Of a stretch of 64,000 nucleotides of DNA, positions 13,179-58,555 are shown piece by piece; position 1 is the stretch's first letter; the number at the start of each line of letters is the position of its first letter. Below the pieces are notes generated by a model, which worked only from the letters and a program-made list of their open reading frames with translations, was not told the DNA's origin and did not search any database. Source of the DNA: Duganella sp. SG902 (GTDB lineage: Bacteria; Pseudomonadota; Gammaproteobacteria; Burkholderiales; Burkholderiaceae_D); assembly GCF_013376005.1 (NCBI RefSeq), contig NZ_JABMJK010000007.1, positions 62,001 to 126,000 of the forward strand, given 5' to 3'. A program made the position numbers and the translations under genes.

Positions 13179-13546
13179 GAGAGATCTTTTTGCAGCTGAG
13201 ACGCGCTAGCTTCGCATGGTTGGGGATGGGGCGCATCCTCCACTCAGACTAGCTGCCGCCGGGATGGGGTGCCACCATGTCTGCCGCCACAGGCGGTAAA
13301 CGGCGGCGAGCAGGCGGATGGCCGCGGCGCGCGACCGCTGAAGCCAGATCAGGAAGACCGGCGGGTCAATGGAGGCGGCAAGATTTTCGGGACGGGGCCG
13401 GAAGCATCTCGCGGCGTGAGCGGACCGAGCGACTGGCTCGTCAGTTGCCGCGCGTCGGCGCCGCCACATCGTCCGTTCAGACGGTCCCCTGCCCCGCGTT
13501 GCAGGCCATACTTGGGCTCGAACGTACAATCATGTGGGAAGAAAAA
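13179..13546. other. Divergent intergenic region between GH3 and GH43-like genes
   Basis: This 370-bp stretch separates two divergent genes. It contains regulatory site A near its right end. The frame of the right-hand gene is open back to 13277, but that extension is Arg-rich with no ribosome site and runs across the operator and promoter, so it is non-coding. Nothing else was recognised. Confidence 0.6.
13467..13512 (+). promoter_or_regulatory. Regulatory dyad site A and promoter of the GH43-like gene
   Basis: The 19-mer CATCGTCCGTTCAGACGGT (13467-13485) contains the dyad CGTC-N6-GACG centred at 13476.5. A -10-like CATACT lies at 13507-13512, starting 30.5 bp from the centre, so the dyad would be centred near -42.5 with no good -35 box. 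This is a typical activator geometry. The same 19-mer and the same CATACT at the same distance occur at 58281-58326. GGCGCCG lies 10 bases upstream, as at site B. Confidence 0.7.
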
Positions 13547-15253
13547 ATGTTTGAAACCAAAAAAACCATCTTGGCCGTCAGTCTGGGGCTGGCCATTGCA
13601 TCGGCCCCCTGGCCCCCGGCGCTGGCGCTGGACCGTTTTGCCACGTATGCCAATCCCGTTGACCTGCCGTATCGCTACCAGTTCCGCTCCCTGCGGGAGG
13701 CTGCCGATCCGACCGTGGTGCGGTTCAAGGACCACTACTGGCTGTTTGCCTCGCATTCAAAAGGGTATTGGTGGTCGTATGATCTGCTCACGTGGGAATT
13801 CGTCGAGCCGACCGGCTTCCCTGTCAATCGCTATGCGCCGACCGCCGTGACCATCGCAGGACGGCTGTACATGACGGCAAGCGAGAACACGCCAGATGTC
13901 TGGGGCACGGACGACCCGTTGGCGGGCGCCTGGATCAAGGCAGCCGACATCCGGCCAGGTTACAACGACCCCTGCCTGTTCCTCGATGACGATGGCCGGC
14001 TCTACATGTACGAAGGGCTGAGCGGTACCGATGTCCTGCGGGTGCACGAGCTGGACCCGGTTACATTCCAGCCCTTGCGCAAGTCCGACGTGCCCGCTTC
14101 ACGGGACAAGGCGCATCGTGGCTGGGAAGTCGTCGGCGACCATAACGAGATCGAAAGCGCGCAGAGTTTCATCGAGGGCTCGTGGATGACGAAATACCGG
14201 GGAAAGTACTATCTGCAGTACGCCTCGCCAGGAACGGAATATAAGACCTACGCCGATGGCGTGCTGACCGCCAGCTCTCCGATGGGGCCGTTTACATATC
14301 AGCCCTACAGTCCGTTCTCGTTCAAGCCGACCGGCTTTGCCGCCGGCGCGGGCCACAGCAGCACGTTTCAGGGAAAGGACGGCCAATGGTGGCATATCGG
14401 CACCATGACGATTTCGCAGCGATTCAAGTTCGAACGGCGCCTTGGCCTGTTCCCTGCCGGATTTTCCAAGGACGGCGCGCTGATGACCGATACCTATCTG
14501 GGCGATTATCCGCGCTACGTCGGCGGCAAGCGAGAGTTAACCGGCTGGATGCTGCTGTCGCGGCGCAAGCCCGTGACCGTGTCGTCGGCCCTGGAAGGGT
14601 ATCCGGCGGAGAATGCGGCCGACGAGGACATCCGCACATGGTGGTCGGCGCAGACCGGTGACGCGACGGAATGGCTGCAGATGGACCTCGGCGGGATCAA
14701 GGCCGTCGAGGCGGTGCAACTCAACTTCGCCGATCAGGATAGCGCCGGTCGCGGTATCAGCCGTGACGGGTACCGCTATGTGCTGGAGGGCTCGGTCGAC
14801 GGCAATAGCTGGCGCACGCTGATCGACCAGTCGTCGGGCGGGCGCGACGCGCCGCACGATTACCGCGTGCTGGCGAAGGCGGTGTTGGCGCGCCACATCC
14901 GGGTCAAAAATGTCCATACACCGGACAACGGTAAGTTTTCCTTGTACGACTTGCGGGTGTTCGGCCATGGGCAGGGGGCGCGGCCTGCGGCGGTGGGGGC
15001 GGTGACGGCGGCGCGTCAGCGGGACGACGCGCGGCGCGCCTCGATCTCCTGGAAACCGGCCAGCAATGCCGATTTCTACATCGTGCGGCTCGGCGTACGC
15101 CCTGATCTGATGAACCAGAATTTCCAGGTTTATGATGGGGCATCAATGGTCACTGTTGGCAGCCTGAACAGCGGGAACAAGTATTACGTGGCGGTCGACG
15201 CCGTTAATGAACAAGGCATCACCAAGGGAAAGACGCGCCTGCTGCTGCCTTGA
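13547..15253 (+). CDS. GH43-like secreted glycosidase with discoidin domain
   Basis: A 568-residue exported enzyme. The signal peptide is ILAVSLGLAIASAPWPPALA. A five-bladed beta-propeller of the GH43/117 type follows: REAADPTVVRFKDHYWLFAS near residue 40 with the probable catalytic base Asp, NDPCLFLDDDGRLYMYEG near 140, and a His-containing blade AGHSSTFQGKDGQWWHIGT near 267. Residues about 340-465 form an F5/8 type C (discoidin) carbohydrate-binding domain (ENAADEDIRTWWSA, DLGGIKAVEAVQLNF, ARHIRVKN), and the last 85 residues look fibronectin-III-like (ASISWKPASNADFYIVRLG). ATG 13547 has GGGAAG 5 bases upstream; ATG 13532 is an in-frame alternative. The linkage cut (arabinosyl, xylosyl or galactosyl) is not resolvable here. 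Confidence 0.85.
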   Translation: MFETKKTILAVSLGLAIASAPWPPALALDRFATYANPVDLPYRYQFRSLREAADPTVVRFKDHYWLFASHSKGYWWSYDLLTWEFVEPTGFPVNRYAPTAVTIAGRLYMTASENTPDVWGTDDPLAGAWIKAADIRPGYNDPCLFLDDDGRLYMYEGLSGTDVLRVHELDPVTFQPLRKSDVPASRDKAHRGWEVVGDHNEIESAQSFIEGSWMTKYRGKYYLQYASPGTEYKTYADGVLTASSPMGPFTYQPYSPFSFKPTGFAAGAGHSSTFQGKDGQWWHIGTMTISQRFKFERRLGLFPAGFSKDGALMTDTYLGDYPRYVGGKRELTGWMLLSRRKPVTVSSALEGYPAENAADEDIRTWWSAQTGDATEWLQMDLGGIKAVEAVQLNFADQDSAGRGISRDGYRYVLEGSVDGNSWRTLIDQSSGGRDAPHDYRVLAKAVLARHIRVKNVHTPDNGKFSLYDLRVFGHGQGARPAAVGAVTAARQRDDARRASISWKPASNADFYIVRLGVRPDLMNQNFQVYDGASMVTVGSLNSGNKYYVAVDAVNEQGITKGKTRLLLP

Positions 15254-15260
15254 GCGAAAA

Positions 15261-15283
15261 GCGCCGGCACAAGCTGCCGGCGC
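15261..15283. terminator. Hairpin between convergent GH43-like and GH106 genes
   Basis: A perfect 9-bp stem GCGCCGGCA/TGCCGGCGC with a 5-base loop lies between the two convergent stop codons. On the minus strand it is followed by CTTTTCG, giving a reasonable intrinsic terminator for the GH106 gene; on the plus strand the following CTGTTTA is weaker. It probably serves both directions. Confidence 0.75.
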
Positions 15284-15287
15284 CTGT

Positions 15288-18161
15288 TTATGGTGCGGTC
15301 TTCGGGCGCTTGAGCACCAGCTTAATCGGACCGAGCAAGCCGGCCGGTTGCGGCGCGAGGTTTTTGAGACCGGGCTTCTTCAAATCGATCATGGCGTTGT
15401 TCGGGCTGTTAAATACACCGATCTGCAACTGATTCACTCCTGGACGCAACATGGCCGTGACATCGGCTTCGAATGGTGGTGCGATCAGCGTCAGTTGCGG
15501 TTTGCCGGCGAACGTCACGATCGCCATATCGCGCACGGCGCCGAGGTCGAGCAACACCTTGCTGTCCGCCTTTAGCCACTCGGCGGGCACCATGACATCG
15601 GCGCGGTACGTGCCTTGCCCGGAGAAGTCGGCCAGCCCGTCAATGGCACGCCAGTCACGCAACCGGTCGAGCGTCAAGCTGCGTTGCACGGCTTTGCCGT
15701 GCTGTCCATGCCCGTCGATCGCCAGCGTCCATGGCCCCGCGCTGAGGTCGATCCAGTCGGTCGGCAGCCAGACCGGCGGCGGCGCCAGACGGCGGTCGGT
15801 GAAGACAAGCAATGCGGCGCCACCGGCGGCGATATCAACGCTGACTTCCGTGCGCCCGTCCTTGAACCGGGCATGCAATCCCGCCCGCTCACCGGTCGCG
15901 GGATTCCAGCGTTCTGGGTGGCCTGCTGCGCGGGTGGTGAAACTGACGGTCACGGCATGGTCTTTGGGATTGTGCAGGAAATACGCAGAGCGCCCGTCCA
16001 ATGTCTTCTCGATGAACAGACACGGCGCGCTGGTGAATGCCAGGTTGTCCGGGATCTTGGCCTGGCGCAGCGTGGCGGCCAACGATTCTGGCCTGGCGAG
16101 GCGCGCTCCCGCTTGCAGTGCGGCCTGCACGGACTCCCGGACCAAGCGGTCCTGCGCGGCATGGTCGCGATATCCCGCCGCACGCGTTGGCGGTTGCTCG
16201 GCAAAAAAAATGGGTAAGCCGGCCCGAGCGAATCGCGCCAATTGCATGGCCGATGGCGCAGGCAGGCTGGGACGCGCCGGCAGGATCAGTGCGGCATAGC
16301 GGGCGCCCCCTTGCGTGACCAGCTCGCGGTTGAGCACGTGGCTCTGCGCGATGCTGTCGTCGTTGATGCGGTCATAGTCGTAGCCGTTGTCCAGCAGGTG
16401 TGTGATCAACTCCTCTGTCGGCTGCGGCTCGATACCATGGAAATAGGTGCTATCGCCCAGATATACGGCCAACGGCACGACATTGTCGCTGTTCTGCATG
16501 ATGCCTTGTACTCCGCCGATATAGGTGTTGAGGCAGCCGATCGCGTTCCAGAGTGGATTCCCTTCGTTGATCATGCTGCTGAAACCTGGCAGGAAGGGGC
16601 TCGGCGCGAACGGATACCAGCCGGGCCAGGTTTCGCGGTGCAGCGCGTAGGGGAAGCCGTGCATGACGATCGCGTTGACACCACTGGCAAACAGCAGGTT
16701 GACCCGTGCCTGCCACTGCGCCGGCGTGACCTCGAACGACCGCAAGGGCCAGCACAGGCTTTCGCAGCTCACCCGCTTGCGTCCGTACAGGTTGGCCGCG
16801 GCGCGCGCCAAACGCAGGAAGTGCGTATTGCCCGTGCCTTCCAGATCCTCGGTCTCGGGAATGTCGGCAAGCCCATAGATTTTCAGGAGGTCGCCCGGCG
16901 CGCCATGGGCCTGGACGCGTCCCAGCAATCCGTGGCCGTGATTCCAGTCAACGAAAGGACGGTAGAAATTCTCAATGATCAGTTCCGACAGCGTGAGCCG
17001 GTAGTCGGCGCGGATCCGGTCGCCGGCATGGCCTGCATCGAAATAGGGCAAGGAGACATGCGGATTCCAGGATTCCATCCAGCCCGGCTGCAGCAGGTGC
17101 GGCAGATAGGGCGTCAGGTCATAACCGCGCCGCGCCTGGAACTGGTCCAGCAGATCCTCCGACCAATACAAATCAGGCATTAGCTCCAGGCTGTCAATGA
17201 AGGTGGCGCGCAGGGCCCGTGCCGGCTTGCCGTTCGCGGCCAGTGGCGCGCCAACGCGGCGTGCATGCGCGTCGAATGCGTCGCGTTTGAAATGGTCCAG
17301 CACCAATTGCGGACCTTCCCCGACGCCGGCCAGCACCGGGCTGTCCACCACGAATTGCTTGAACGCGACGATTTGCCACTGGCCGGCGCTGGGCGGTACC
17401 CAGTCCAGTACGCCATCCGGGCCCAACCGATCGGTAACCACAATGCCCTCGGCCAGGTCCGCCTTGCCGGCCGTCTTGACCACGGATGAGCGGAAATTTT
17501 TGTCATTCTCCAGCACCGGCGCCGTGCTCTTGATGGCCACCACCGCGACCAGCTTTTGCCGCGCCGCGATACGGTCGCGCCAATCCGCCGCGCGCGGATC
17601 GTTGGCGCGCGCGTCAAGCGGCGAGATTGCGCCCATCTTGCGCGTATGCGCCGGGAGCTGGAGGCGGATCGGCGCTGTCAGTGGCGCTTGAACGCTGGTG
17701 ACGGCGGGCGTGAGTTCGATCAGCGCCAGCTCCGGTGTGATTGCAAAGCCTCCGCCGGATGGCCACGCCGAGCCGAAGGTCAAATCGATCTGCAAACCCT
17801 GTTGCCGGGCTTGGTCGGTGCACACATCCACGTGGGCGAAGAAGGCCGGATTGGCATAGTCGTTGATCCGCGCCCGTTCCTGCTTGCTCAGATGGGGAAT
17901 GCCGGGGTTGAAGGCTTGGATTTCAGCGCCGCCAAAACCAGCCTGATCCAGGAGCCGGATCTCGCGGCGCAATTCCTCGTCGGCGACGGCGCCGCTAGGC
18001 CACCACCAGCGTACCCATGGCCTGGCCTGAGCGGGGGGGCGCGAAAACAGTTGTTGGAAGGTTTTTCGGGGATTTGCCCCATTGGCGACGCCGGGCGGTA
18101 GCGTCGCCGCGCTAGCCATGGCTGTTATCGATGTAAGAAAATCTCGGCGGGTCAAGGCCAT
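15288..18161 (-). CDS. GH106 alpha-L-rhamnosidase, Tat-exported
   Basis: A 957-residue enzyme predicted to release alpha-L-rhamnose from glycans or plant glycosides. It begins with a twin-arginine signal (LTRRDFLTSITAMASAAT), consistent with folded export. Family marks include RPWVRWWWPSGAVADEELRREI near residue 48, a hallmark of GH106, then GFGGAEIQAFNPG, DSLELMPDLYWSEDLLDQF, ARAAANLYGRKRVSCESLCW and a C-terminal galactose-binding-like beta-sandwich (RADVMVPAEWLKADSKVLLDLGAVRDMAIVTF in pieces). The ATG at 18161 has GGAG upstream and starts the Tat signal; an upstream ATG at 18230 would run through the promoter. It is divergent from the DUF1593 remnant and shares regulatory site B. Confidence 0.9.
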   Translation of the reverse strand: MALTRRDFLTSITAMASAATLPPGVANGANPRKTFQQLFSRPPAQARPWVRWWWPSGAVADEELRREIRLLDQAGFGGAEIQAFNPGIPHLSKQERARINDYANPAFFAHVDVCTDQARQQGLQIDLTFGSAWPSGGGFAITPELALIELTPAVTSVQAPLTAPIRLQLPAHTRKMGAISPLDARANDPRAADWRDRIAARQKLVAVVAIKSTAPVLENDKNFRSSVVKTAGKADLAEGIVVTDRLGPDGVLDWVPPSAGQWQIVAFKQFVVDSPVLAGVGEGPQLVLDHFKRDAFDAHARRVGAPLAANGKPARALRATFIDSLELMPDLYWSEDLLDQFQARRGYDLTPYLPHLLQPGWMESWNPHVSLPYFDAGHAGDRIRADYRLTLSELIIENFYRPFVDWNHGHGLLGRVQAHGAPGDLLKIYGLADIPETEDLEGTGNTHFLRLARAAANLYGRKRVSCESLCWPLRSFEVTPAQWQARVNLLFASGVNAIVMHGFPYALHRETWPGWYPFAPSPFLPGFSSMINEGNPLWNAIGCLNTYIGGVQGIMQNSDNVVPLAVYLGDSTYFHGIEPQPTEELITHLLDNGYDYDRINDDSIAQSHVLNRELVTQGGARYAALILPARPSLPAPSAMQLARFARAGLPIFFAEQPPTRAAGYRDHAAQDRLVRESVQAALQAGARLARPESLAATLRQAKIPDNLAFTSAPCLFIEKTLDGRSAYFLHNPKDHAVTVSFTTRAAGHPERWNPATGERAGLHARFKDGRTEVSVDIAAGGAALLVFTDRRLAPPPVWLPTDWIDLSAGPWTLAIDGHGQHGKAVQRSLTLDRLRDWRAIDGLADFSGQGTYRADVMVPAEWLKADSKVLLDLGAVRDMAIVTFAGKPQLTLIAPPFEADVTAMLRPGVNQLQIGVFNSPNNAMIDLKKPGLKNLAPQPAGLLGPIKLVLKRPKTAP

Positions 18162-18194
18162 TGGGTGTCTCCGGGTGGTGTTTTCCGTCACCAC

Positions 18195-18266
18195 ATTCTG
18201 GTGCCCTTGCGGCGCCGGAGCATCGTCCATTCAGACGGGAGGCCGGCGGCGCAATAAGTTTACATT
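18195..18266. promoter_or_regulatory. Regulatory dyad site B with divergent promoters
   Basis: CATCGTCCATTCAGACGGG (18221-18239) contains CGTC-N6-GACG centred at 18230.5. A -10-like TACATT (18261-18266) faces the plus-strand DUF1593 remnant, and CAGAAT (minus strand, 18200-18195) faces the GH106 gene. Both hexamers start exactly 30.5 bp from the centre, so one dyad would sit near -42.5 for both promoters. The GH106 leader would be about 27 bases long. Confidence 0.68.
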
Positions 18267-18324
18267 ATCGTGTATTTGTTGGAATTTTTGCCGTATAGTG
18301 ACTTTATTCCACACGGGAGACAGT

Positions 18325-18765
18325 ATGCGAAAATTAACAGGCGCGATCTTGCTTGGCGCCGCGCTGATGGACGGTGGCGCACCGGCACATGCCGGGACGA
18401 CGGCGCGGCGCGGCGCGCAGGAAGCGCGACAAAGGCTGTTCGTGCTAACGGACATCGAAGCCGATCCCGACGATACCCAGTCGTTGATCAGGCTGATGTT
18501 ATACGCGAATCAGTTCGACATCGAGGGCATCGTCGCCACCACCTCGGTGCATATGAAGAACGTCGTCCACCCCGATGCGGTGCGCTCAGTCATCCGGCGC
18601 TATGGACAGGTGCGACCGAACCTGCTCAAGCATGAGTCCGGATATTGCTTGCCCGCGAACCTCGTCCAGCCCACGTCCTGTTGCAATATCACTTCCGGCG
18701 GCGTGTTCTGCGCGATGATGTCCCATGGCGTGCTCCCCGGTGCGCCTGCCATTTCCTGCGCGTGA
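18325..18765 (+). pseudogene. 3'-truncated DUF1593 nucleoside-hydrolase-like gene
   Basis: Residues 1-107 or so match the N-terminal third of the DUF1593 protein at 60926-62434: a signal peptide (ILLGAALMDGGAPAHAG), then FVLTDIEADPDDTQSLIRLMLYANQFDIEGIVATTS against [32 protein letters not shown], and GQVRPNLLKHESGY against AKVRPNLMLHAPGW. After about 18645 homology stops and the frame continues as meaningless sequence antisense to the isomerase gene on the other strand. The DPDD-type metal/ribose motif is retained, but most of the catalytic domain is absent. The promoter (site B) and ribosome site (GGGAGA) look intact, so a short inactive peptide could still be made. A deletion joining two convergent genes explains the structure. 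Confidence 0.8.
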
Positions 18766-19232
18766 TTGTGGTAGCCGATACGCATGCCTTGCGCGATCAG
18801 CGCGGCGGACAGGGCGGTCAGCTCTGCGGCCAATTCGTTGCTCAGCGCCGGCGTGGCGCCGCGCCGGTCCATTGAGATGAACAGGTGATGGCAGCCCAGC
18901 GCAGCGTAAAACGCCGTGGTCGCCTCGATGTGCTGCGGCGCCAGTTGTCCGAGCTCGAGGTGGGCGCCGGCGCAGGCAAGGCCGTTGCGATCGAAGAGTG
19001 CCCGCAGGCCGGTGGGATTCTGCCGGTAGGGGCCGAACTGGCCGGCGAATTCGACACCCTGGAATCCCATGTGCGCGATCTTGTTCAGTACCCCGTCGAA
19101 GTCCCTGCGGAGATCGTCCTTGACCGACCATAATTGCAAGCCTATGCGCGTCGCCGCTGACGGGGTTTGGGCCATGGTGCCCGGGGCAAGCAAGGCCAGC
19201 AGCAAGGGCAGGGTGGCGTGCGTCGCTCTCAT
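18600..19232 (-). pseudogene. 3'-truncated sugar phosphate isomerase/epimerase (TIM-barrel)
   Basis: A secreted xylose-isomerase-like TIM-barrel protein (signal peptide LPLLLALLAPGTMA) with IGLQLWSVKDDLRRDFDGVL, MGFQGVEFAG, LELGQLAPQHIEATTAFYAALG and GYHNHAQEM, the usual order of this family. Family members are commonly about 270-300 residues long; here homology ends after QQDVGWTRFAGK near residue 190, and the last 15 or so residues are the reverse complement of the neighbouring DUF1593 gene. The missing part would hold the last barrel strands and metal ligands, so the product is unlikely to be active. GGAG precedes the ATG at 19232. Site C lies upstream. Confidence 0.78.
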
Positions 19233-19270
19233 GTTGTCTCCGTGTCGGTCAGGTCTGGTGGATGCACCGG

Positions 19271-19342
19271 ATTGTGGGGAGGGGGAGAGGGCCGTGCACC
19301 GTCCAAATGGACGATGACCGTCAGCGATAAACGACAGATTAT
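19271..19342. promoter_or_regulatory. Regulatory dyad site C with divergent promoters
   Basis: ACCGTCCAAATGGACGATG (19298-19316; reverse complement CATCGTCCATTTGGACGGT) contains CGTC-N6-GACG centred at 19306.5. GATTAT at 19337-19342 faces the GH3 gene at 19373, and CACAAT (minus strand, 19276-19271) faces the truncated isomerase. Both match four of six -10 positions and both begin 30.5 bp from the centre, as at site B. Confidence 0.68.
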
Positions 19343-19372
19343 GATGGGGGAGATATTATCGAGAGGATATGT

Positions 19373-21586
19373 ATGAAACTGGAAACAAAGGGCGGCGCGC
19401 GGCGCATGCGGCTGGTTGCCGCGGCTTGTCTCGCGGCAATATCTGTCGGCGCAATGGCGATGCGGCCTGCCGTGGCGCAAGACGCGTCGGATGCGTGGGC
19501 CGCGTCGGTCCTGGGCCAGATGACGCAGGACGAGAAGTTTGATCTGGTGCGCGGCAGTAATCCGTTCGCGGCCAGGCCCAAGCTGGGCGCGGAGGTTGCC
19601 AAGGGCGCCGGCTATGTGAAGGGCGTGCCGCGTCTGGGCGTGCCGTTCCTGACCGAGAGCGATGCCAGCGTGGGGGTGGCCAACATGACGGGCGGGCTCA
19701 GGCCGGGCGACGTGGCGACCGCGCTGCCATCGACCGCTTTGCTGGCATCGACCTGGGATGCCCGGCTGGTCGAGCGCGGCAGTGCCATGATCGGCGCGGA
19801 GGCCCGCGACAAAGGATTTAACGTGTTGCTCGCTGGCGGCGTGAATCTCGCGCGTGAGCCGAGGAACGGCCGCAACTTTGAATATTTTGGTGAGGACCCG
19901 CTGTTGGCCGGCACGCTGGCGGGCCACGCCATCCGTGGCGTCCAGTCGAACCACGTGATGTCGACCATCAAGCACTTTGCGCTGAATACGCAGGAGACCG
20001 GGCGCACCATCCTGACGGCCGACATGGAGCAAGGCGCACTGCGCGAGAGCGATCTGCTGGCATTTGAAATCGGCATAGAAATCGGTCAGCCCGGTTCCGT
20101 GATGTGCGCCTACAACAAGATCAATGGCGTGTTCGGCTGCGAAAACGCCTTCCTCCTGAACGACGTCCTGCGCCGCGACTGGGGCTACAAGGGATTTGTC
20201 ATGTCCGACTGGGGCGCGGTGCATGGTCCGTCGATTGCGCAGGGGCTGGATCAGGAATCGGGCACCACCCCGGCCGACGCCGGCTATTTCGGCGCGCAGC
20301 TGCGTGCGGCACTGGCGGCCGGCACGGTCAAGCAAGCGGACCTGGATCAGTCGGTGCGCCGCATCCTGCGTTCCATCCATGCAGTTGGCCTGGCCGACCA
20401 TCCGCCGGCGCAGAAGCCGATCGACTACGAGGCCAACGCACGCGTGGCCCAGGAGGTGGCGGAGGCCGGCATAGTGCTGCTCAAGAACGAGCGCCAGCTG
20501 CTGCCCATCGCCGCCTCGGTCCGCACCATCCTGGTGGTGGGCGGGCACGCCGATGTGGGCGTGCTCGCGGGCGGCGGCGGTTCCTCGCAGGTCAACCCGG
20601 TAGGCGGTGCGGCGTTGAAGCTGCCGGCCGCCTTCGGCAAAAAGCTCTACAGCAATTCGTCGCCGATGGTTGCCCTGCGCAAGGCCATGCCGCAGGCACG
20701 TATTTCGTTTGACGATGGCAGCGATCCGCGCCGCGCCGCCGAGGCTGCCGGCAAGGCTGACCTTGTCGTGGTGTTCGGCGAACAGTTCACGACCGAAACC
20801 ATGGATGTGAAGAACCTGAGTTTGCCGGACAATCAGGATGCGCTGATCGCGGCCGTCGCGAGCGCCAATCCTGCCACCGTGGTGGTGCTGGTGACGGGCG
20901 GCCCGGTGCTCATGCCCTGGCTGGACCAGGTCGGCGCTGTCCTGGAAGCCTGGTATCCCGGTCAGCGCGGCGGCGATGCGATTGCGCGCATCCTGACGGG
21001 ACAGGTCAATCCCTCCGGCCGGCTGGCGATGACCTTCCCGGCCAGCGAATCGCAGCTGCCCAACCCCACGATTCCTGGCTATGAGATGGCGGGCGAGACG
21101 GTGCAGCGCGACCTCTACGGCTTGCCGAAAGACATGAAGCCGTTTTCGGTAACCTATCCGGAAGGGGCGAACGCAGGCTATCGCTGGTTCGACCACACCG
21201 GGGCGAAACCCTTGTTCCCGTTCGGCCATGGGTTGAGCTATACGCGCTTCGTGTACAGGAATCTGCGCGTGGCCGGCGGCATGCGGCCGCGCTTGTCGTT
21301 TGCCATTGCCAATACTGGCCATCGTGCCGGCGCAGACGTCGCCCAGGTGTACGCGCGCGTCAACGGCGTCAAGCGCCTGGTTGGCTGGAGCCGGGTGGAT
21401 CTCAAACCGGGCGAAAGCCGGCTGGTATCGGTCGAGGTCGATCCTCGGATCATGGCCCGCTTTGACGTGGCGGCGAACAACTGGCATCTCGCGGCGGGCA
21501 CTTACGACATCGAGATCGGCGCCAATGTCAATCAGCCTTCCTTGAAGGCGAAATTGCGGCTTGATGAACAACGGATCAAACCCTGA
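19373..21586 (+). CDS. GH3 beta-glucosidase-like enzyme
   Basis: A 737-residue secreted GH3 enzyme. The signal peptide (RLVAAACLAAISVGAMAMRPAVAQ) is followed by MTQDEKFDLVRG near residue 48, a barrel with TESDASVGVANM, GVNLAREPRNGRNFEYFGEDP, KHFALNTQE near 202 and VMSDWGAVHG near 277 containing the nucleophile Asp. The sandwich domain has GGGGSSQVNP, a feature of the thermostable-glucosidase-like GH3 group, and the C-terminal domain ends with DIEIGANVNQPSLKAK. GAGAGGA lies just upstream of the ATG. It is the first gene after site C and is followed after 8 bp by another GH3, so the two form an operon. Confidence 0.92.
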   Translation: MKLETKGGARRMRLVAAACLAAISVGAMAMRPAVAQDASDAWAASVLGQMTQDEKFDLVRGSNPFAARPKLGAEVAKGAGYVKGVPRLGVPFLTESDASVGVANMTGGLRPGDVATALPSTALLASTWDARLVERGSAMIGAEARDKGFNVLLAGGVNLAREPRNGRNFEYFGEDPLLAGTLAGHAIRGVQSNHVMSTIKHFALNTQETGRTILTADMEQGALRESDLLAFEIGIEIGQPGSVMCAYNKINGVFGCENAFLLNDVLRRDWGYKGFVMSDWGAVHGPSIAQGLDQESGTTPADAGYFGAQLRAALAAGTVKQADLDQSVRRILRSIHAVGLADHPPAQKPIDYEANARVAQEVAEAGIVLLKNERQLLPIAASVRTILVVGGHADVGVLAGGGGSSQVNPVGGAALKLPAAFGKKLYSNSSPMVALRKAMPQARISFDDGSDPRRAAEAAGKADLVVVFGEQFTTETMDVKNLSLPDNQDALIAAVASANPATVVVLVTGGPVLMPWLDQVGAVLEAWYPGQRGGDAIARILTGQVNPSGRLAMTFPASESQLPNPTIPGYEMAGETVQRDLYGLPKDMKPFSVTYPEGANAGYRWFDHTGAKPLFPFGHGLSYTRFVYRNLRVAGGMRPRLSFAIANTGHRAGADVAQVYARVNGVKRLVGWSRVDLKPGESRLVSVEVDPRIMARFDVAANNWHLAAGTYDIEIGANVNQPSLKAKLRLDEQRIKP

Positions 21587-21594
21587 CCAGCATT

Positions 21595-23883
21595 ATGGAC
21601 AACTTGAACGCCACCTTCCCCTTCAACCGCTCGCGCCGGGCCTTCCTGGCCGGTTCCCTGGCGGTTACCACCATTGGCTTCAGCCTGCCGGGCATCGCCG
21701 CCACGCGGACCGTTGCCGACCCGTTCATTGAGCGGCTGCTCAAGCGGATGACCATCGAGGAAAAAGCCGGCCAGTTGACGATGAACGGCGCCCAAGGCAT
21801 CGGGCGCCTCGTCAATCCGGATACCGGTCCGGAGCCCGGCCTGCAGACCACGTTGAACGACATTGCGCAAGGCCGCCTCACGGGATTGTTCAATGCCGAC
21901 GACGTCAAGCTGGGACGCGCCATGCAAAAAATTGCGGTCGAGAAGTCGCGCCTGGGCATTCCGCTGATCTTCGCCGCCGACATCATCCATGGCCTGAAAA
22001 CCGCGTTTCCGGTCCCGCTGGGCGAGGCGGCCAGTTTTGATGCCGACCTGTGCGCGCGCACTGCACGCGCGACAGCCATCGAGGCCACGGCGTTCGGCGT
22101 TCAGTGGACGTTTGCGCCGGCGGTCGACATCGCGCGCGATCAGCGCTGGGGCCGCGTTGTTGAGGGCGCCGGTGAGGATCCCTGGCTGGGCAGCCGCCTT
22201 GCGGAGGCGCGCGTGCGCGGCTTCCAGGGCGGCGATCTGCGCGCCGACGACTCGCTGCTGGCCTGTCCCAAGCACTTTGCCGGCTACGGCGCCGTCCAGG
22301 GGGGCATGGACTACAACACGGCCGACATTCCGGAAACCACCTTGCGCGAAGTCCATCTGCCGCCGTTCAAGGCCGCTTTCGACGCGGGCGCGTTATCGAC
22401 CATGGCCAGCTTCAACGACACTGGTGGCGTGCCGTCGACCGGCAACCGCCATCTGCTGACCGGCATCCTGCGCGGCGAATGGGGGTTCCGCGGGCTGGTC
22501 GTGTCGGACTTCAATTCGGAAAAAGAACTGATCGACCATGGCTACGCCGCCGACGAAGCGGACGCTGTTTATAAGGCGGTCATGGCGGGCTGCGATATGT
22601 CGATCCAGGGTGGCCTGTATCTCAAGCATATCCCGGCGCTGGTCAAGTCGGGGCGGCTGAAAATGGCGGTGGTGGATGAGGCGGTGCGGCGCGTTCTGCG
22701 GGTGAAGAAGGCGCTGGGCCTGTTCGAGAATCCGTACCGCTCGCTCGATCCGGCACGCTTGGACACGGATATCCGCCGGCCGGACACCGTAGCGCTGGCG
22801 CGCGAGGCCGGGCGCAAGGCCATTGTCCTGCTGAAAAATGATCGCAGCCTGCTGCCTTTGCCGAAGTCGGGCAAATCGATCGCGCTGATCGGTCCGTTCG
22901 TTACAGACAAGAATAATGCCTTGGGGCCGTGGATGGTGTTTCCGGATATGAAGTCGGCCGTCACCCTGGAGCAGGGCGTGCGCGAGGCGCTGGGCGCCAA
23001 TGCCAACCTGGCGGTGGCGGCGGGCAGCGGGGTTGAGCGCCCGCTCGCCGGCGGGATCGAGGCCGCGGTGGCGGCCGCCCGGGGAGCGGACGTCGTGGTG
23101 CTGTACGTCGGCGAGGCGGCCAATATGTCGGGCGAGGGCGCTTCGCGGGTGGATATCACCATCCCCAAGGCGCAGGTCGACCTGATTGACGCGGTGGCGG
23201 CGGTGGGCAAGCCGATGGTGATACTGCTCAAGCACGGGCGGGCGCTGGAGTTGCCGAATTCGGTCAGGAATGCCCAGGCCGTCGTGTGCACCTGGTTCCT
23301 GGGCTCGGAATCGGGCAACGCGATCGCCGACGTGCTGTTCGGCGATTTCGCGCCCCAGGGACGCTTGCCAGTCAGCTTCCCCCGCCGCGCCGGCCAGCAG
23401 CCGTTCTACTACAACCACCGCGTGACCGGAAGGCCCAGCTTGACCGAGGGGCCGCCGGTCGGCGCGCGTTACCGGGAAGTGTCAACCAGCGCGCTGTATC
23501 CGTTCGGCCATGGCCTTGGCTATTCGACGGTCACCTATGGCGCGACCGAAATCAGCCAGGCCCGCGTGCCAAAAAACGGCACGCTGTCGATCAAGGCGCG
23601 CGTCACCAATACCGGTACGCGCAAACACCATGAAGTCGCCCAGCTGTACCTGCGGATCAAGGTTGCAGACATCGTGCAGCCGCTGCGGGCGTTGAAGGGC
23701 ATCCGGCACCTCGAGCTGGCTGCCGGCGAAAGCGCGGAGGTCGAGTTCGCGCTGACGGCCCGGGATCTCGCGTATGTCCACGCAGATACCGTGACGCGCA
23801 CGGACGCCGGCGTGTTCGAGGTTGTGATCGCGCCGGATGCGGCGGCGGGCCAGCCCGTGCCATTCGTCCTCACGGGCGCATAG
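21595..23883 (+). CDS. bglX: GH3 beta-glucosidase, BglX-like, Tat-exported
   Basis: A 762-residue enzyme with a twin-arginine signal (SRRAFLAGSLAVTTIGFSLPG) near residue 13. BglX-type marks are MTIEEKAGQLTMNG near 52, FAADIIHGLKTAFPVPLGEAASFD near 123, DQRWGRVVEGAGEDPWLGSRLAEARVRGFQG near 180 in pieces, KHFAGYGAVQGGMDYNTAD, and LVVSDFNSEKEL near 303 with the nucleophile Asp. A fibronectin-III-like domain begins near 660. It is only 8 bp after the preceding GH3, with a poor ribosome site, so translation may depend on coupling. The two GH3 proteins belong to different subgroups and may remove different terminal residues from one substrate. Confidence 0.93.
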   Translation: MDNLNATFPFNRSRRAFLAGSLAVTTIGFSLPGIAATRTVADPFIERLLKRMTIEEKAGQLTMNGAQGIGRLVNPDTGPEPGLQTTLNDIAQGRLTGLFNADDVKLGRAMQKIAVEKSRLGIPLIFAADIIHGLKTAFPVPLGEAASFDADLCARTARATAIEATAFGVQWTFAPAVDIARDQRWGRVVEGAGEDPWLGSRLAEARVRGFQGGDLRADDSLLACPKHFAGYGAVQGGMDYNTADIPETTLREVHLPPFKAAFDAGALSTMASFNDTGGVPSTGNRHLLTGILRGEWGFRGLVVSDFNSEKELIDHGYAADEADAVYKAVMAGCDMSIQGGLYLKHIPALVKSGRLKMAVVDEAVRRVLRVKKALGLFENPYRSLDPARLDTDIRRPDTVALAREAGRKAIVLLKNDRSLLPLPKSGKSIALIGPFVTDKNNALGPWMVFPDMKSAVTLEQGVREALGANANLAVAAGSGVERPLAGGIEAAVAAARGADVVVLYVGEAANMSGEGASRVDITIPKAQVDLIDAVAAVGKPMVILLKHGRALELPNSVRNAQAVVCTWFLGSESGNAIADVLFGDFAPQGRLPVSFPRRAGQQPFYYNHRVTGRPSLTEGPPVGARYREVSTSALYPFGHGLGYSTVTYGATEISQARVPKNGTLSIKARVTNTGTRKHHEVAQLYLRIKVADIVQPLRALKGIRHLELAAGESAEVEFALTARDLAYVHADTVTRTDAGVFEVVIAPDAAAGQPVPFVLTGA

Positions 23884-23913
23884 TCTGATCAGCTTGGAGA
23901 CTGTGGTTTTTTG

Positions 23914-23941: not shown

Positions 23942-23987
23942 ACCGTCTGAATGGACGATGTCCGCCCCCCCCAAGCAGGTTCAGGAT
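23942..23987 (+). promoter_or_regulatory. Regulatory dyad site E upstream of the TonB-dependent receptor
   Basis: ACCGTCTGAATGGACGATG (23942-23960), the reverse complement of the site B consensus, is centred at 23950.5. At the usual distance the best hexamer is CAGGAT (23982-23987), one base further out than at the other sites and matching only three of six -10 positions. The operator match is excellent, the promoter match weak. Confidence 0.55.
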
Positions 23988-24056: not shown

Positions 24057-26381
24057 ATGAAGAGTAACGATGCTGCAATCAAGCTGACGCTGTGCGCCGC
24101 GGCGCTGGCCCTGGCGTTCCCCGTGATGGCCCAGCAGGCGCCGGGCCAGGACGACGGCAAGATCCAGGAAGTCATTGTGACGGCGAACAAGCGCAAGGAA
24201 AGCATCCAGTCGGTGGCCATGTCGGTGGACGCGGTGAGCGGCGACATGCTGCAAAAGATGAACATTCAACAGTTCCAGGATGTCGAGAAACTGGTGCCTG
24301 GTCTGGTGCTTGACCCTGGCGACGGCCGCGGTCAGACGGTGACCTTGCGCGGGATCAGCTTCAATCCGGATACGGGGACCAGCCCGTCCGTCCAAATTTA
24401 CTGGAACGAGACGCCGATCACGGCCTCGAACGCCTTCCGCGCGATGTTCGATATCGGACGTATCGAGGTGTTGCACGGCCCGCAGGGCACGTTGCGGGGG
24501 CAGACCTCGCCGGCGGGTTCCATCACCATCGGCACCCAGCGTCCCGACACCGGCGCCGTCAGCGGTCGCGTCAGCCAGACCTTCGGCTCCGACGACATGC
24601 GCAATTCACAGGCCGCCGTCAACGTGCCGCTGATACCCGAGGTGCTGGCCGTGCGCGTAGCCGGCATGTATAACTATAGCGCCAACGGCGTGCACAACAT
24701 CACCAATGGCGCCACCGACAGCGATCGCGGCAAAGGCGGCCGCATCTCCGTGCTCTACCAGCCGACCAAGTCGCTGGAGGTGCTGCTGGTGCACCAGGTG
24801 CTGACCTCGAACGTTGTCAACGATCCTATGGTCATCGGCAAACCATTTGAAGGTCAGCCCGGTCCGGTACTCGGCGATGGCGACCGCGCCGCAGTGATCG
24901 AGGGGCCGTACCGTTTCTACAATCATACCAAGTTGACCTCGCTGAACGTCGGGTGGGAATTCAGCGGTCATAAGCTCAGCTACATCGGCGGTTTCCAGCG
25001 CAGCGCCGAAAACACCGACCGCGACACGGATGTCGGCAACATCATTCCCGGCTGGGCTAACCAGCAGTTTGTGAAATTCTCGACCCAACAGCGCACGCAC
25101 GAGGTACGCCTGGAGTCGAGCGGGGCGCGGCGCTGGAATTACATGGTCGGCGCGTATTACTCGTATGTCGACGGTCCGGCCGAATTCACGCAAAAGTTTC
25201 CATATTACTACCCTACACCATTCACACCACCGCTGGAAACAACTCTGAGGGGGACGACGGCTGATGGCAGCTACGGCAAAGGCACTGCGCTGTTCACCGA
25301 CCATACATTGGCATTGACCGATGCCGACCAGCTGGAGCTTGGCGTGCGGCTGCAAAAGAACAAGGGCTATGGCCAGCAGTATCTGGAGGTGTTTGGCCAG
25401 AAACTGCAAGCCTTGCCTGAGGACCGCGCGCGCACGGATAGCAAGGCGTGGACGGGGTCGGCCAGCTATCGCCACAATTTCGACAAGAACATCATGGCCT
25501 ACGTCAGCCTGGGCACCGGCTATCGTCCGGGCGGCACCACCTCCTTCGTCACCACGCCGGGGCTGGCCCCCGACCTGATCACCTACCGGGCCGAGAAATC
25601 ACGGGCGATCGAGCTGGGCGTCAAATCCACCCTGTTCGAGCGCCGTCTGGTGCTGAACGCCGACCTCTTCCAGCAGAATCTGAAGAACTATATTGGCCGG
25701 GTGAATGAGCTGTACGTGCGGGTGGCGGCCAAACCGGGGGAAGCCGCAGGTCCGGACGCCGGCGGTTCCTACCCGGGCGACACCAGCGGCACGATCAACC
25801 TCAACACCAATGGCGATCTGATCAGCCGAGGCATCGAGGCCAACGCCATCTGGCGCATTTTGCCCAACTGGCGCGCCCAGGCCTCGTTCAGCTACGTGGA
25901 TTCCCATTATGACAATGCTGAGCTGTACTGCAACGACTCAAACAATGATGGCGTGCCCGACCACCTGGGTAAAAGCGTGCAACCGGGCCGCCAGGTATCG
26001 GTCTGCCGCAGCAATGGCGCGCTGACCGATGAGTTTGGCACGCGGAACGGCAAGTTCAACATGACGCTGCAGTCGGAGTACACGCACGATATCGGCAATC
26101 TGGAGGGGTTCGTCCGCGGTCTCGTACGCTATAACCCGGCGCGGTACAACGAGCCGAACGACCAGCATATCGCTTCGTTCACGCCGGTCGACCTGTTCCT
26201 CGGGGTGCGGAATCAAAACCAGGATTGGGAAGTCAGCTTGTGGGCGCAAAACCTCTTCAATCGCTCGCCGAAGCAGTTCTTCCAGCCTTCCGTGGCATCA
26301 AACGGGCTCGTTGGTGGTTATGGTATCACCGGCATTCCGCCGGAGCGCAAGGTGGGCATGACGGTACGCTACGATTTCTGA
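24057..26381 (+). CDS. TonB-dependent receptor
   Basis: A 774-residue outer-membrane active transporter for oligosaccharides or glycosides, powered by TonB-ExbBD. The signal peptide ends at AFPVMA. The plug carries IQEVIVTANKRKESIQSVAMSV (as separate strands), QFQDVEKLVPGL, VTLRGISFNPDTG and GRIEVLHGPQGTLRGQTSPAGSI, the standard plug motif with an unusual RGQTSPAG in place of the common GRNATGG. The barrel ends in VRYDF with the terminal Phe needed for Bam recognition. GGAGA lies upstream of ATG 24057; the longer frame from 23958 overlaps site E. No SusD-like partner is present, as expected outside Bacteroidota. It should import products for the surrounding periplasmic hydrolases. Confidence 0.93.
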   Translation: MKSNDAAIKLTLCAAALALAFPVMAQQAPGQDDGKIQEVIVTANKRKESIQSVAMSVDAVSGDMLQKMNIQQFQDVEKLVPGLVLDPGDGRGQTVTLRGISFNPDTGTSPSVQIYWNETPITASNAFRAMFDIGRIEVLHGPQGTLRGQTSPAGSITIGTQRPDTGAVSGRVSQTFGSDDMRNSQAAVNVPLIPEVLAVRVAGMYNYSANGVHNITNGATDSDRGKGGRISVLYQPTKSLEVLLVHQVLTSNVVNDPMVIGKPFEGQPGPVLGDGDRAAVIEGPYRFYNHTKLTSLNVGWEFSGHKLSYIGGFQRSAENTDRDTDVGNIIPGWANQQFVKFSTQQRTHEVRLESSGARRWNYMVGAYYSYVDGPAEFTQKFPYYYPTPFTPPLETTLRGTTADGSYGKGTALFTDHTLALTDADQLELGVRLQKNKGYGQQYLEVFGQKLQALPEDRARTDSKAWTGSASYRHNFDKNIMAYVSLGTGYRPGGTTSFVTTPGLAPDLITYRAEKSRAIELGVKSTLFERRLVLNADLFQQNLKNYIGRVNELYVRVAAKPGEAAGPDAGGSYPGDTSGTINLNTNGDLISRGIEANAIWRILPNWRAQASFSYVDSHYDNAELYCNDSNNDGVPDHLGKSVQPGRQVSVCRSNGALTDEFGTRNGKFNMTLQSEYTHDIGNLEGFVRGLVRYNPARYNEPNDQHIASFTPVDLFLGVRNQNQDWEVSLWAQNLFNRSPKQFFQPSVASNGLVGGYGITGIPPERKVGMTVRYDF

Positions 26382-50256: not shown

Positions 50257-50282
50257 CGTCAGTCTCCTCGATAAGGATGGCG

Positions 50283-50921: not shown

Positions 50922-50925
50922 GGCG

Positions 50926-54651: not shown

Positions 54652-54697
54652 GGTGCTGGCGGTGGCTCCCGGCGGACGATTGTTTCATGAAAGATAG

Positions 54698-54737
54698 TTA
54701 TGACTAGCATATAGCGATGGCTATAATTCCGCAACAA
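54698..54737. promoter_or_regulatory. Divergent promoters and TetR operator candidate
   Basis: The perfect inverted repeat TATAGC-GATG-GCTATA (54710-54725) overlaps the TetR-gene -10 TATAAT (54722-54727) and occupies the spacer and -10 of the kinase promoter (TTGTTG 54737-54732, 18 bp, TATATG 54713-54708). A possible TetR-gene -35 is TTATGA (54698-54703). AACAA-TT-TTGTT (54733-54744) is a second dyad. One repressor on the first dyad could block both promoters. Confidence 0.65.
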
Positions 54738-54786
54738 TTTTGTTCATGCGATAATTGGCCTGACTCTTTCCATTCATACTTCCGCC

Positions 54787-55431: not shown

Positions 55432-55545
55432 TGCGGGGTGGCCGGCATGGTAGGCTGACGGCAATCCTCACTGCTGGCGGCACCTCGGATCGCAAGGGTA
55501 TCCCGGTCGACCGGCTCTGAGCCAAACTCCGGCGGCCCTTTGCGC

Positions 55546-58107
55546 TCAGGGCAGGCGACTGTCCAGCGTCACCTGCGTACCACTCAGCCCCGGCGCGCTC
55601 GCGGTGAGCACCAGGCGGCCGGCCTGGCCGGGCCGGGTGCGCACGATCGCCAGCGCCTTGCCGTTGAAGACCCGGCGTGTGGGCGACTGGAAGGATTCGA
55701 AGCTGGTCGCGTCGCCGTTGTCGGTGGCGACGATCTCGCCCGGTCCGCTCAGACTGAACGCTACGCGATCGCTGGCGCGCGGTATCGTATGGCCAGCCTT
55801 GTCGGTCACCGTCACGGTCACGAAGGCGAGGTCGGCGCCGTCCGCGCGGAGCGTCGCACGGTCGGCGACAAGTCGAAGCCCGGCCGGTTCGCCCGTCGTT
55901 TGCACGGTGTCCTCGGCCCACGGCTTGCCATTCTTGTAGACCACGGCGTGCAGGATGCCGGGCGCGTAGACGACGTCGTCCCAGCGCAGCCGGTAGTCGC
56001 GCGGACTGCGCTTCTTGCGGCCGAGCGACGTGCCGTTCAGGAACAGTTCCGCCTCATCTCCCGAAGTGTACAAGTGTACCGGCGTAACCAGCCCAAGCCG
56101 CTCTGGCCAGTTCCAGTGCGGCAGCAAATGCGCCATGGGAAACTCGGGGCGCCAGCGCGCCTGGTACAAGTAGAAGCGGTCCTTCTTGAATCCGGCCAAA
56201 TCGACGATGCCGAAGTAGGAGCTGCGCGAGGGGATCTCGATCTTCTTCAGTTCCGCCAGCTCCTTCGCGGCGCGCTGCTGCTGGGCGGGGTCGCTGAAAT
56301 TCAGAAGATTCGTGCTGTCGCTGTTGTAGGGCGTCGGTTCGCCGAGGTAGTCGAAACCGGTCCAGACGAATTCGCCGGCGACGAAGGGATGGTCGTCCTG
56401 GCTGCGGAACTCCGTCTCAGCCAGCGTCGCCCAAGTGGGCGCGGTCAGGTCGTAGCTGCTGACCTGGAAGTCGGCCATGCCCTTTGTCCCATCGTCCCCT
56501 AGCGGGAAGAAATATACGCCGCGCGAGCTGACCGTCGACGCGGTTTCGCTGCCGAATATCGGAATGTGCGGGGCGCGGTCGTGGAAGTTCGCGTATTCAT
56601 GTGGTTTGTAGTTATAGCCGAACAGGTCGACGGCTTCCTGTAGACCGTTGTAGCCCGCTTCGATGTTGTTGTTGGCCATCGTGAGCGGGCGGGTACGGTC
56701 TTCGCTGCGCGCGATGGCGGCCAGCCGCGCGGCGAGCTTCCAACCTTCGCTCTTACCCTGTTCGGGGATCTCGTTGCCAATGCTCCAGCCGAACACACTT
56801 GGATGATTGCGGTCACGCCGGATCATCGCACGCAGGTCCTGTTCATGCCAAGCGGTGAACAATGTGTGGTAGTCGTTTGGCTTCTTGCCGACGGCCCAGG
56901 CGTCGAAGGCTTCGTCGAGCACCAGAAAGCCCATGCGGTCGGTCAGGTCGAGCAGCTCGGGCGCGGGTGGATTATGGCTGGTGCGGATCGCGTTGACGCC
57001 CATTTCTCGGAGGATCTCCAGCTGGCGTTCAAGCGCTCGCGTGTTGATCGCGGTGCCCAGCGCTCCCAGGTCGTGGTGCAGGCAGACGCCTTGGATCTTG
57101 ATGTGCTCGCCGTTCAGCAGCAGGCCGCGCTCCGGATCGAGCGTGATGCTGCGCACACCGAACGGCGTTTCGACCACATCGGCCACGCGGCCGTTCGCGT
57201 TGACGGTGGTGACAGCAACATAGCGCTGCGGGTTGGCGATGCTCCACAGGCGCGGCTGCGGCAGCGTCAATGCGTGGCTGATCATGGCCTGGCGTCCGGC
57301 CACGATCTTGACCGGTGTGGCCGCCTCTCGACGTGCGACAGGCTCGCCGAGGCGGCGGCCATCGGCGCTCAGTGCGTAGATCTCGGTCGTCACCCGCACG
57401 TTCGCTGTCGCGGCATCGTTCTGCAGCGTCGCCTGCAAGTTCACGATGGCGGACGTGGTCGTCACCTTCGGCGTCGTCACGAAGATGCCGTCCTGTGCCA
57501 CATGCAACGGGGCCGTTTTGACCAGCCAGACATTGCGGTAGATGCCGCCGCCCGGATACCAGCGCGATGCGTCGGGCGGATTGTCGAGGCGGATAGCCAG
57601 CACATTCTGCGCGCCTGGGTTCACCCAAGGGGTAAGGTCCACGCGCCAAGAAGCGTAGCCGTATGGCCAACCGCCCACGTAATGGCCGTTTATCCAGACT
57701 GCGGCGTGCGACATGGCGCCGTCGACGTCCAGGTAAATGCGGCGCCCGGCGTCCGCCGCAGGCAGCGTGAAGTGCTTGCGGTACCAGCCGACGCCCCACG
57801 AGGGTAGTTTGCCGGTCTCGCCAGGATAGGATTGCTTGAACGGCCCTTCGATGCCCCAATCGTGCGGCAGGTTGAGGCTGCGCCAACCCGCGTCGTCGAA
57901 TCCGGCTGCCGTGGCGACCGCGTTCCACATGTCCGGGCTGGTGCCGGCGGCCGGCGCCAGGGTACCGGCCGGGTCGCCCTTGTTGAAGCGCCAGTCGGTG
58001 TTGAAGGCAAGACGTTCGCGCGGCGATATGGCGTCGGTGGACCTGGCGTCCTGGAGCGACATCAGGCCGAGGGAGAGGCAGATAAGGAGGTGGGCGTGGC
58101 GTGTCAT
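55546..58107 (-). CDS. GH2 beta-galactosidase with DUF4982-type C-terminus
   Basis: An 853-residue secreted enzyme with a signal peptide (LLICLSLGLMSLQDARS). The sugar-binding domain (LNLPHDWGIEGPF, GVGWYRKHFTLP, YLDVDGAMSHAAVWINGHYVGGWPYGYASWRVDLTPW in pieces), the immunoglobulin-like domain and the TIM barrel (IRTSHNPPAPELLDLTDRMGFLVLDEAFDAW) are in GH2 order. GWSIGNEIPEQG near residue 450 holds the acid/base Glu, and IPIFGSETAS near 510 the nucleophile Glu. The C-terminal PFAM-type DUF4982 and Big-like modules follow. It is convergent with TetR and divergent from the GH3 at 58556; site D in between could serve both. Confidence 0.92.
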   Translation of the reverse strand: MTRHAHLLICLSLGLMSLQDARSTDAISPRERLAFNTDWRFNKGDPAGTLAPAAGTSPDMWNAVATAAGFDDAGWRSLNLPHDWGIEGPFKQSYPGETGKLPSWGVGWYRKHFTLPAADAGRRIYLDVDGAMSHAAVWINGHYVGGWPYGYASWRVDLTPWVNPGAQNVLAIRLDNPPDASRWYPGGGIYRNVWLVKTAPLHVAQDGIFVTTPKVTTTSAIVNLQATLQNDAATANVRVTTEIYALSADGRRLGEPVARREAATPVKIVAGRQAMISHALTLPQPRLWSIANPQRYVAVTTVNANGRVADVVETPFGVRSITLDPERGLLLNGEHIKIQGVCLHHDLGALGTAINTRALERQLEILREMGVNAIRTSHNPPAPELLDLTDRMGFLVLDEAFDAWAVGKKPNDYHTLFTAWHEQDLRAMIRRDRNHPSVFGWSIGNEIPEQGKSEGWKLAARLAAIARSEDRTRPLTMANNNIEAGYNGLQEAVDLFGYNYKPHEYANFHDRAPHIPIFGSETASTVSSRGVYFFPLGDDGTKGMADFQVSSYDLTAPTWATLAETEFRSQDDHPFVAGEFVWTGFDYLGEPTPYNSDSTNLLNFSDPAQQQRAAKELAELKKIEIPSRSSYFGIVDLAGFKKDRFYLYQARWRPEFPMAHLLPHWNWPERLGLVTPVHLYTSGDEAELFLNGTSLGRKKRSPRDYRLRWDDVVYAPGILHAVVYKNGKPWAEDTVQTTGEPAGLRLVADRATLRADGADLAFVTVTVTDKAGHTIPRASDRVAFSLSGPGEIVATDNGDATSFESFQSPTRRVFNGKALAIVRTRPGQAGRLVLTASAPGLSGTQVTLDSRLP

Positions 58108-58555
58108 GGATGTTCCTGGATCAGCGTGTTTGTGTGGTGATGGTGCTGGGCGTGCCTTTGGCGCCGGCCACCCAGGTGTGGTTCCCGGCGATGCTTCGTC
58201 CGCTTGTGGCGGTGCGGGGGCGAGCGGGCAAGTCCCAAGAAAGCTTTTGAGCGTATGGTGCGGGTATCAAGGCTTGGTTACATCGTCCGTTCAGACGGTG
58301 CCAGGACTCTCGTCACACGCCATACTTCCAGTTGTCACGCACTGATGACCTGTGGCGTCATCTCCGCCATGATCGATACATCGTCACCGTTGGACAGGGG
58401 CCATGCTGCCAGTGCAGTCGCTAACCTCGCGCGACGACTGGTCCGGCGTCACTCCGTAACTGACGGTACCTGTACTAATGGTTGTCGATAGCCGACATTG
58501 GACAGCTTCAAGTATCTTCATTGATCTACACGCGTTAAAGAGAAAGAGACTGAAA
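58108..58555. other. Divergent intergenic region with a long leader
   Basis: This 450-bp region separates GH2 and GH3 genes and contains site D. If transcription begins near 58333, the GH3 mRNA has a leader of over 200 bases. I see no riboswitch signature and no short gene with a ribosome site in it. Confidence 0.55.
58255..58326. promoter_or_regulatory. Regulatory dyad site D between GH2 and GH3
   Basis: CATCGTCCGTTCAGACGGT (58281-58299) is identical to site A, centred at 58290.5. CATACT at 58321-58326, again 30.5 bp from the centre, faces the GH3 gene; CACCAT (minus strand, 58260-58255) is a three-of-six match facing GH2. Confidence 0.68.

Follow-up and report, generated by a model that had tools for sequence, protein, structure and literature searches.

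In a glycoside cluster of Duganella sp. SG902, the same inverted repeat recurs in front of glycosidase genes, raising the question of which protein recognizes it and to what effect. The DNA analysed here (the window) comprises 64,000 nucleotides, positions 62,001 to 126,000 of contig NZ_JABMJK010000007.1. An earlier description of it, made from the letters of the window (the sequence-only reading), had proposed that a 19-bp dyad marks a scattered glycoside regulon and lies where LuxR-type class II activators bind.

Dyads and promoters of the glycoside cluster

The genome was searched with patterns (exact, with mismatches, and centre-free), standing in for a weight-matrix scan. The window contains five exact matches to CATCGTCCRTTYRGACGG (0 mismatches), which are operators A to E (Table 1); each includes CGTC-N6-GACG, confirming the shared pattern proposed previously. 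The shared core is 18 bp long and not 19, although A and D do have a 19-mer and the hexamer CATACT in common, and the start of E was corrected from 23942 to 23943. Up to three mismatches to CATCGTCCRTTYRGACGG are found at six places in the window versus 0.34 expected from shuffles, and CGTC-N6-GACG occurs 10 times versus 2.48 expected, five of these ten being operators A to E. In the whole genome (6,806,794 bases), the only exact matches are operators A to E, all in the cluster region, and not the random genome-wide occurrence that the sequence-only reading had considered as its counter-case.

A sixth site, TATCGTCCGTTCGGACGA, has two mismatches to CATCGTCCRTTYRGACGG and is located 3.4 kb to the left of the window (C7:58606-58623, i.e., window -3394 to -3377), before the gene of a PF06580 histidine kinase followed by that of a LytTR response regulator; in the forward direction CATACT is found 30.5 bp from its centre, as at A and D. 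When three mismatches are allowed genome-wide, 60 matches are obtained versus 29 with the reversed CATCGTCCRTTYRGACGG pattern, so that these weak matches are largely noise. The centre-free pattern ATCGTCCNNNNRGACG identifies 9 distinct places in this genome, 6 of which are the known sites, and 1 in the reversed control. Outside the cluster it yields 3 places here, 6 in a congener (G034), and 7 in a species of another genus (G391), with 1, 1, and 0 in the respective reversed controls; those of G034 and G391 are taken for chance. Since the six sites are confined to about 62 kb, the same region that holds the candidate regulator gene described below, the regulon is local and the term "scattered" no longer applies. 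Its proposed membership stands for the glycoside genes named earlier and is extended by the histidine kinase/LytTR pair just outside the window. The dyad was also searched for in the operon containing the regulator gene, where none was found. About 26 kb between the two glycosidase groups (about 28.4-54.7 kb) are site-free and hold genes for patatin, acetoacetate decarboxylase, LigB, efflux, two-component, FGGY kinase, aldolase, and other proteins.

The enzyme types of the cluster, whose genes were called with a home-made caller, are GH3, GH43, GH106, GH2, GH78-type, and GH35/42-like. Between 18325 and 19232, a truncated Sde182/DUF1593 gene (+ strand, roughly the initial third of the domain) adjoins the TIM-barrel gene (- strand, 210 aa), an arrangement that looks like a deletion scar; in G391 the counterpart of the short TIM-barrel gene is part of a 662-aa gene, and G034 also has a short TIM region. 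The gene at 5325-6320, kept in G034 and G391, encodes a flavin-reductase protein in which a C-terminal stretch resembles a winged helix; it may be another regulator or the partner of an oxygenase.

Table 1. Features of the window and its left flank (positions in window coordinates; distances from the dyad centre to the start of the hexamer).
Feature	Position	Strand	Remark
LytTR response regulator	-2269 to -1529		left of window
TetR-family protein	-905 to -213		just left of window, upstream of first GH3 gene
Candidate regulator, 385 aa	2347-3504	+	LuxR-ligand-domain/GAF-like fold (predicted), PAS, divergent LuxR (GerE-type) helix-turn-helix
Operator A	13467-13484	+	before GH43-like gene
-10-like CATACT of A	13507-13512	+	30.5 bp
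GH43-like gene with F5/8 type C domain	13548-15253	+	likely start at signal peptide
GH106 alpha-L-rhamnosidase	15288-18161	-	likely start at TAT signal
-10-like CAGAAT of B	18195-18200	-	30.5 bp
Operator B	18221-18238	+	between GH106 (-) and truncated Sde182/DUF1593 gene (+)
-10-like TACATT of B	18261-18266	+	30.5 bp
Xylose isomerase-like TIM-barrel gene	18600-19232	-	probably shortened
-10-like CACAAT of C	19271-19276	-	30.5 bp; kept in three species
Operator C	19299-19316	-	between TIM-barrel gene (-) and GH3 gene (+)
-10-like GATTAT of C	19337-19342	+	30.5 bp
Two GH3 genes	19373-21586 and 21595-23883	+	
Operator E	23943-23960	-	before TonB receptor gene (+); position kept in G034 and G391
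TonB-dependent receptor	24057-26381	+	likely start at signal peptide
GH2 gene	55546-58107	-	
Operator D	58281-58298	+	between GH2 (-) and GH3 (+)
-10-like CATACT of D	58321-58326	+	30.5 bp
GH3 gene	58478-60913	+	
Sde182/DUF1593, full-length	60926-62434	+	
Alpha-L-rhamnosidase, GH78 type	62446-64998	+	extends beyond window end

A hexamer was considered -10-like if its second letter is A, its sixth is T, and four or more of its six letters agree with TATAAT. Such a hexamer starts 30.5 bp from the dyad centre in 7 of the 12 readings of the six sites; by chance, against an intergenic background, the probability is about 5e-11 for this one distance and 2e-9 for 46 distances. Our recount agrees with the earlier one for A, for B and C in both directions, and for D on the plus strand. 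No convincing -10 is present at 30.5 bp from operator E (TCAGGA is found there, and CAGGAT at 31.5 bp), while D reversed has CACCAT at 30.5 bp, which matches 3 of 6 letters and is off the rule.

G034 retains the stretch of genes that starts with the kinase and ends at 28.2 kb, with 72-93% identity, and five sites occur there at the corresponding places. In G391, sites persist in the intergenic region of the TIM-barrel and GH3 genes, ahead of the TonB receptor gene, and at the kinase and GH106 genes. This occurrence at orthologous promoters of two other species supports the shared operator claimed before. In the three species together, a -10-like hexamer is found at 30.5 bp in 11 of 30 readings and at any other distance in at most 3. 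The promoter of the TIM-barrel gene has CACAAT at 30.5 bp in all three species despite differing spacers, and the G034 kinase promoter has CATACT at 31.5 bp. On C37 of G391, at about 180.4-181.5 kb (L115), both the histidine kinase (67%) and its preceding dyad are retained; relatives of the LytTR protein are found on G391 C45 (72%) and in G402, G405, G408, and G410 (71-72%). A contig binned as Xanthobacteraceae (L135) carries a cluster piece near-identical to that of Massilia sp. Root335, and in both the regulator is 79% identical to that of the window; the contig is probably misbinned.

The LuxR-type candidate and its relatives

The protein encoded at 2347-3504 matches PF00196 at residues 329-374 with 16.9 bits, below the Pfam cut-off of 23.5, and its PAS match is weak. 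PF00196 was seen in five of the six family members scanned, with a best score of 22.3 bits against the same cut-off, and the NCBIfam LuxR models give weak matches to the 2347-3504 protein (E 2.6e-4 and 9e-3). A structure model and fold comparison suggest that a LuxR-type ligand-binding fold is present at the N-terminus, although this predicted fold would fit GAF domains nearly equally well. Among family members the helix-turn-helix is 68-80% identical to that of the candidate, while identity of the N-terminal half goes down to 27-50%. Full-length homology to LuxR-type proteins in steroid-degradation clusters is present: the Comamonas testosteroni loci L185, L191, and L192 encode proteins with 36-37% identity from residue 5 or 9 to 382. 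The neighbours of these genes are homologous to genes of the KshA-bearing cluster of G037, and the loci carry the dyad. These C. testosteroni members are presumed to be TeiR/TesR. The own genome also contains partial relatives of this protein, none of them read from L131 or L132.

The association of regulator and dyad was examined in the best 80 of 202 loci of relatives (seven-member alignment, one genome per species), which include Pseudomonas, Thauera, Aromatoleum, Azoarcus, Comamonas, Collimonas, and Massilia. Since the loci were chosen by the regulator, its presence in all 80 is by construction, and the loci are related, not independent; independent evidence comes from the regions picked by the motif and from the reversed controls. 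Inverted tetramers with spacers of 4-12 were ranked de novo in intergenic DNA (L148 being counted in two groups). The top pair is CGTC-N6-GACG in the Oxalobacteraceae group (8 stretches versus 0 reversed) and, in the largest group, GTCC-N4-GGAC (43 versus 9 reversed), which is the same dyad; in the Pseudomonas group L138-L144 the dyad is absent from the 14 tetramer pairs listed. With one fixed core and flank rule, the 80 loci give 159 merged sites versus 22 in the reversed sequence, of which 156 are intergenic and 3 genic by our own gene calls. This rule, looser than the strict pattern mentioned below, finds at least one site in 70 of the 80 loci, compared to 17 reversed, and none in the other 10.

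The -10 was no part of the rule that defined the 159 sites. Of 313 distinct readings from the 80 loci, 59 have a -10-like hexamer starting at 30.5 bp and 40 have one starting at 31.5 bp, versus 0-8 readings for each of the other distances between 14.5 and 59.5 bp; none of 41 control readings has one at 30.5 or 31.5 bp. The best -35 matches at the family sites reach 1-4 of 6 letters, mostly 2-3. After reduction for kinship at 75% regulator identity, 27 clusters are left, 23 with a site and 17 with a -10 at 30.5 or 31.5 bp. Relatives in steroid-degrading and other bacteria seem, judging from sequence, to share both the site and its distance from the promoter.

When regions of other genomes were picked by the dyad instead, a family member was found on the same contig in 6 of 8. 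These eight regions, from six genomes with exact or clustered matches, were examined out of a survey allowing at most one mismatch, in which 115 of 392 family genomes have a match; many of the single matches look like chance. A control set of 17 loci (141,760 bases), which is not clean because it includes L127, itself picked by motif match, and cluster-flanking stretches, has 3 sites and 0 reversed. The pattern WTMGTCCNNNNRGACGAT gives 47 matches (44 places) versus 2 reversed in 12 whole genomes from the 80 loci, and 12 versus 0 in six further ones. The single site on G405:C3 and most matches with 2-3 mismatches were taken as chance. A catabolic cluster on G100 C15 (L117-L119, L247) has several dyads, and its contig also encodes a protein related to the C. 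testosteroni regulator (56% identity).

Residue 354 belongs to the recognition helix. All 73 regulators outside L138-L144 carry A there and all 7 of this group carry T, although the latter are closer overall to the 2347-3504 protein (46-51% identity) than most members. The strict pattern gives no site beside the regulator in these seven loci; the looser rule gives two at L138 and one in its reversed control. Four of the seven genomes have no WTMGTCCNNNNRGACGAT match and one family member each, while the other three have 4, 2, and 3 matches with three, three, and two family members, respectively. One extra member read per genome in these three has A at 354 (NTARAHLR or NTSRAHLR; L233 and L234 were left out) and lies near sites, within 0.2 kb on G427:C16 and within 1.4 kb on G426:C24 and G425:C25; two sites on G427:C13 and one on G425:C11 have no such member nearby. 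This result is a correlation within one clade.

Weighing the possible regulators

Judging from the comparisons above, we are quite confident that a LuxR-type activator uses the dyad as its operator. Most likely this activator is the 2347-3504 protein, from a TeiR/TesR-like family here serving glycosidases. A dimer of this protein would bind [A/T]T[C/A]GTCC-N4-[G/A]GACGA, here CATCGTCCRTTYRGACGG, with the dyad centre preceding the -10 by 30.5-31.5 bp, counted to the first base of the hexamer, i.e., near -42.5 or -43.5. The promoters have class II features, namely an operator centred near -42, a -10, and a poor -35. The bound regulator would sit over the position of the missing -35, and without this element transcription by RNA polymerase would require the activator in its bound state. 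A class II site near -42.5 is typical of LuxR-type proteins; the sequence of the window dyad differs from that of the lux box. Both the position near -42.5, with predicted start sites, and the LuxR-type guess of the sequence-only reading gain support, the former from the same -10 spacing around the regulator's relatives and the latter from a LuxR-type protein inside the cluster and the first rank of the same dyad de novo around its relatives. We infer that binding leads to activation, by which the regulator would switch on the TonB receptor, the GH3 genes, GH43, GH106, and the TIM-barrel gene, as well as GH2/GH3/DUF1593/GH78 and the histidine kinase/LytTR pair.

Other proteins of the cluster were considered. 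Homologues in the 80 loci are found in 2 for the kinase, 1 for the LytTR protein, and 3 each for a 130-aa protein, the TetR-family protein, and the flavin reductase; being present in 1-3 of 80 loci, none of them explains the family-wide dyad, and the flavin reductase with its winged helix was dropped as a regulator. TetR proteins bind palindromes, and the TetR gene is part of the cluster, with counterparts in G034 (83%) and G391 (70%). However, its three dyad-rich loci are all of the window's own cluster type, a homologue occurs in 1 of the 294 family genomes sampled (a set not shown to include G034 and G391), and a repressor over the -35 region would have no -35 to block, which makes a TetR operator highly improbable. 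The LytTR response regulator might bind the dyad and control its own operon, directly preceded by the sixth site, together with the cluster. We give this very little weight: LytTR sites are usually direct repeats, whereas the dyad is inverted, and in G391 all 10 LytTR matches lie off the cluster contig, which nevertheless retains the sites.

Alternatively, the same LuxR-type protein could bind the dyad and repress, being released by an inducer. The site does overlap the -35 position, but no -35 is recognizable, and the strict distance from the -10 is more in keeping with class II activation than with repression. C. testosteroni is reported to have a LuxR-type repressor (PMC6678751, PMC8700777), yet TeiR is described as positive (PMC8399759, PMC8700777); overall, repression is unlikely. 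As for chance or REP-like copies with no regulatory role, a REP-like look-alike exists in G214, where the scattered repeats CGTCGTCCATTCGGACCG (at least six listed places; L103, L108) were set aside, but the dyads considered here are confined to promoters, have a constant distance to the -10, and are kept at orthologous places, leaving this possibility next to no credence.

Steroid regulators and a possible inducer

TeiR/TesR of C. testosteroni is described as a positive LuxR-type regulator of steroid degradation, and TeiR as a membrane-bound protein that has kinase activity (PMC8700777, PMC6678751, PMC8399759); in P. stutzeri Chol1, deletion of one TeiR-like gene delayed cholate use (PMC8399759). 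The activator proposed here would resemble TeiR/TesR through its full-length C. testosteroni relatives, presumed TeiR/TesR, beside KshA-cluster homologues at dyad-bearing loci, and differs in its targets, glycosidases and a TonB receptor. Its modelled N-terminal fold and domain plan are also similar to those of EL222 and VqmA (LuxR solos with PAS and GerE) and of LasR and VqsR (acyl-homoserine-lactone LuxR).

In Sphingobium sp. RC1, GH3, GH78, and GH106 enzymes act on steroidal saponins, and GH2/GH3/GH78 sets act on potato glycoalkaloids, as cited in the same paper, whose main text lacks the word LuxR (PMC10653915). GH3, GH78, and GH106 are also in the window's cluster, a likeness of genes; GH39, in contrast to that strain, is not among the proteins scanned here. 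It is conceivable, although we consider it doubtful, that a regulator family of steroid catabolism has been recruited with its operator to glycoside use, sensing the steroid or triterpenoid aglycone of plant saponins and inducing, by way of one conserved class II operator, the TonB receptor and glycosidases that strip the sugars; the operator would then be a general TeiR-like binding code and residue 354 its specificity residue. The saponin-aglycone inducer is speculative and drawn by analogy, an attractive guess because GH3/GH78/GH106 enzymes act on saponins elsewhere and TeiR-like relatives serve steroid degradation.

A search for KshA (PF19298) gives 26.5 bits in the own genome and 24.9 and 23.0 in G034, just over the cut-off, compared to 264.5 in G037 and 272.1 in G177, and no match in G391 or G402. 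Steroid ring degradation in the own genome thus finds little support in the sequence; if saponins are used, perhaps the sugars alone are eaten, given the weak KshA-type match.

TeiR was reportedly named in 2004, and an operator for it or its relatives was not found in the accessible portions of the open-licence literature. The dyad and its spacing rule would allow regulon prediction from sequence in Pseudomonas, Thauera, Aromatoleum, Comamonas, Massilia, and Duganella. For direct tests they supply a single protein and a single site together with a natural variant (T354), and a plant-glycoside cluster gains a named candidate regulator together with a list of its putative targets.
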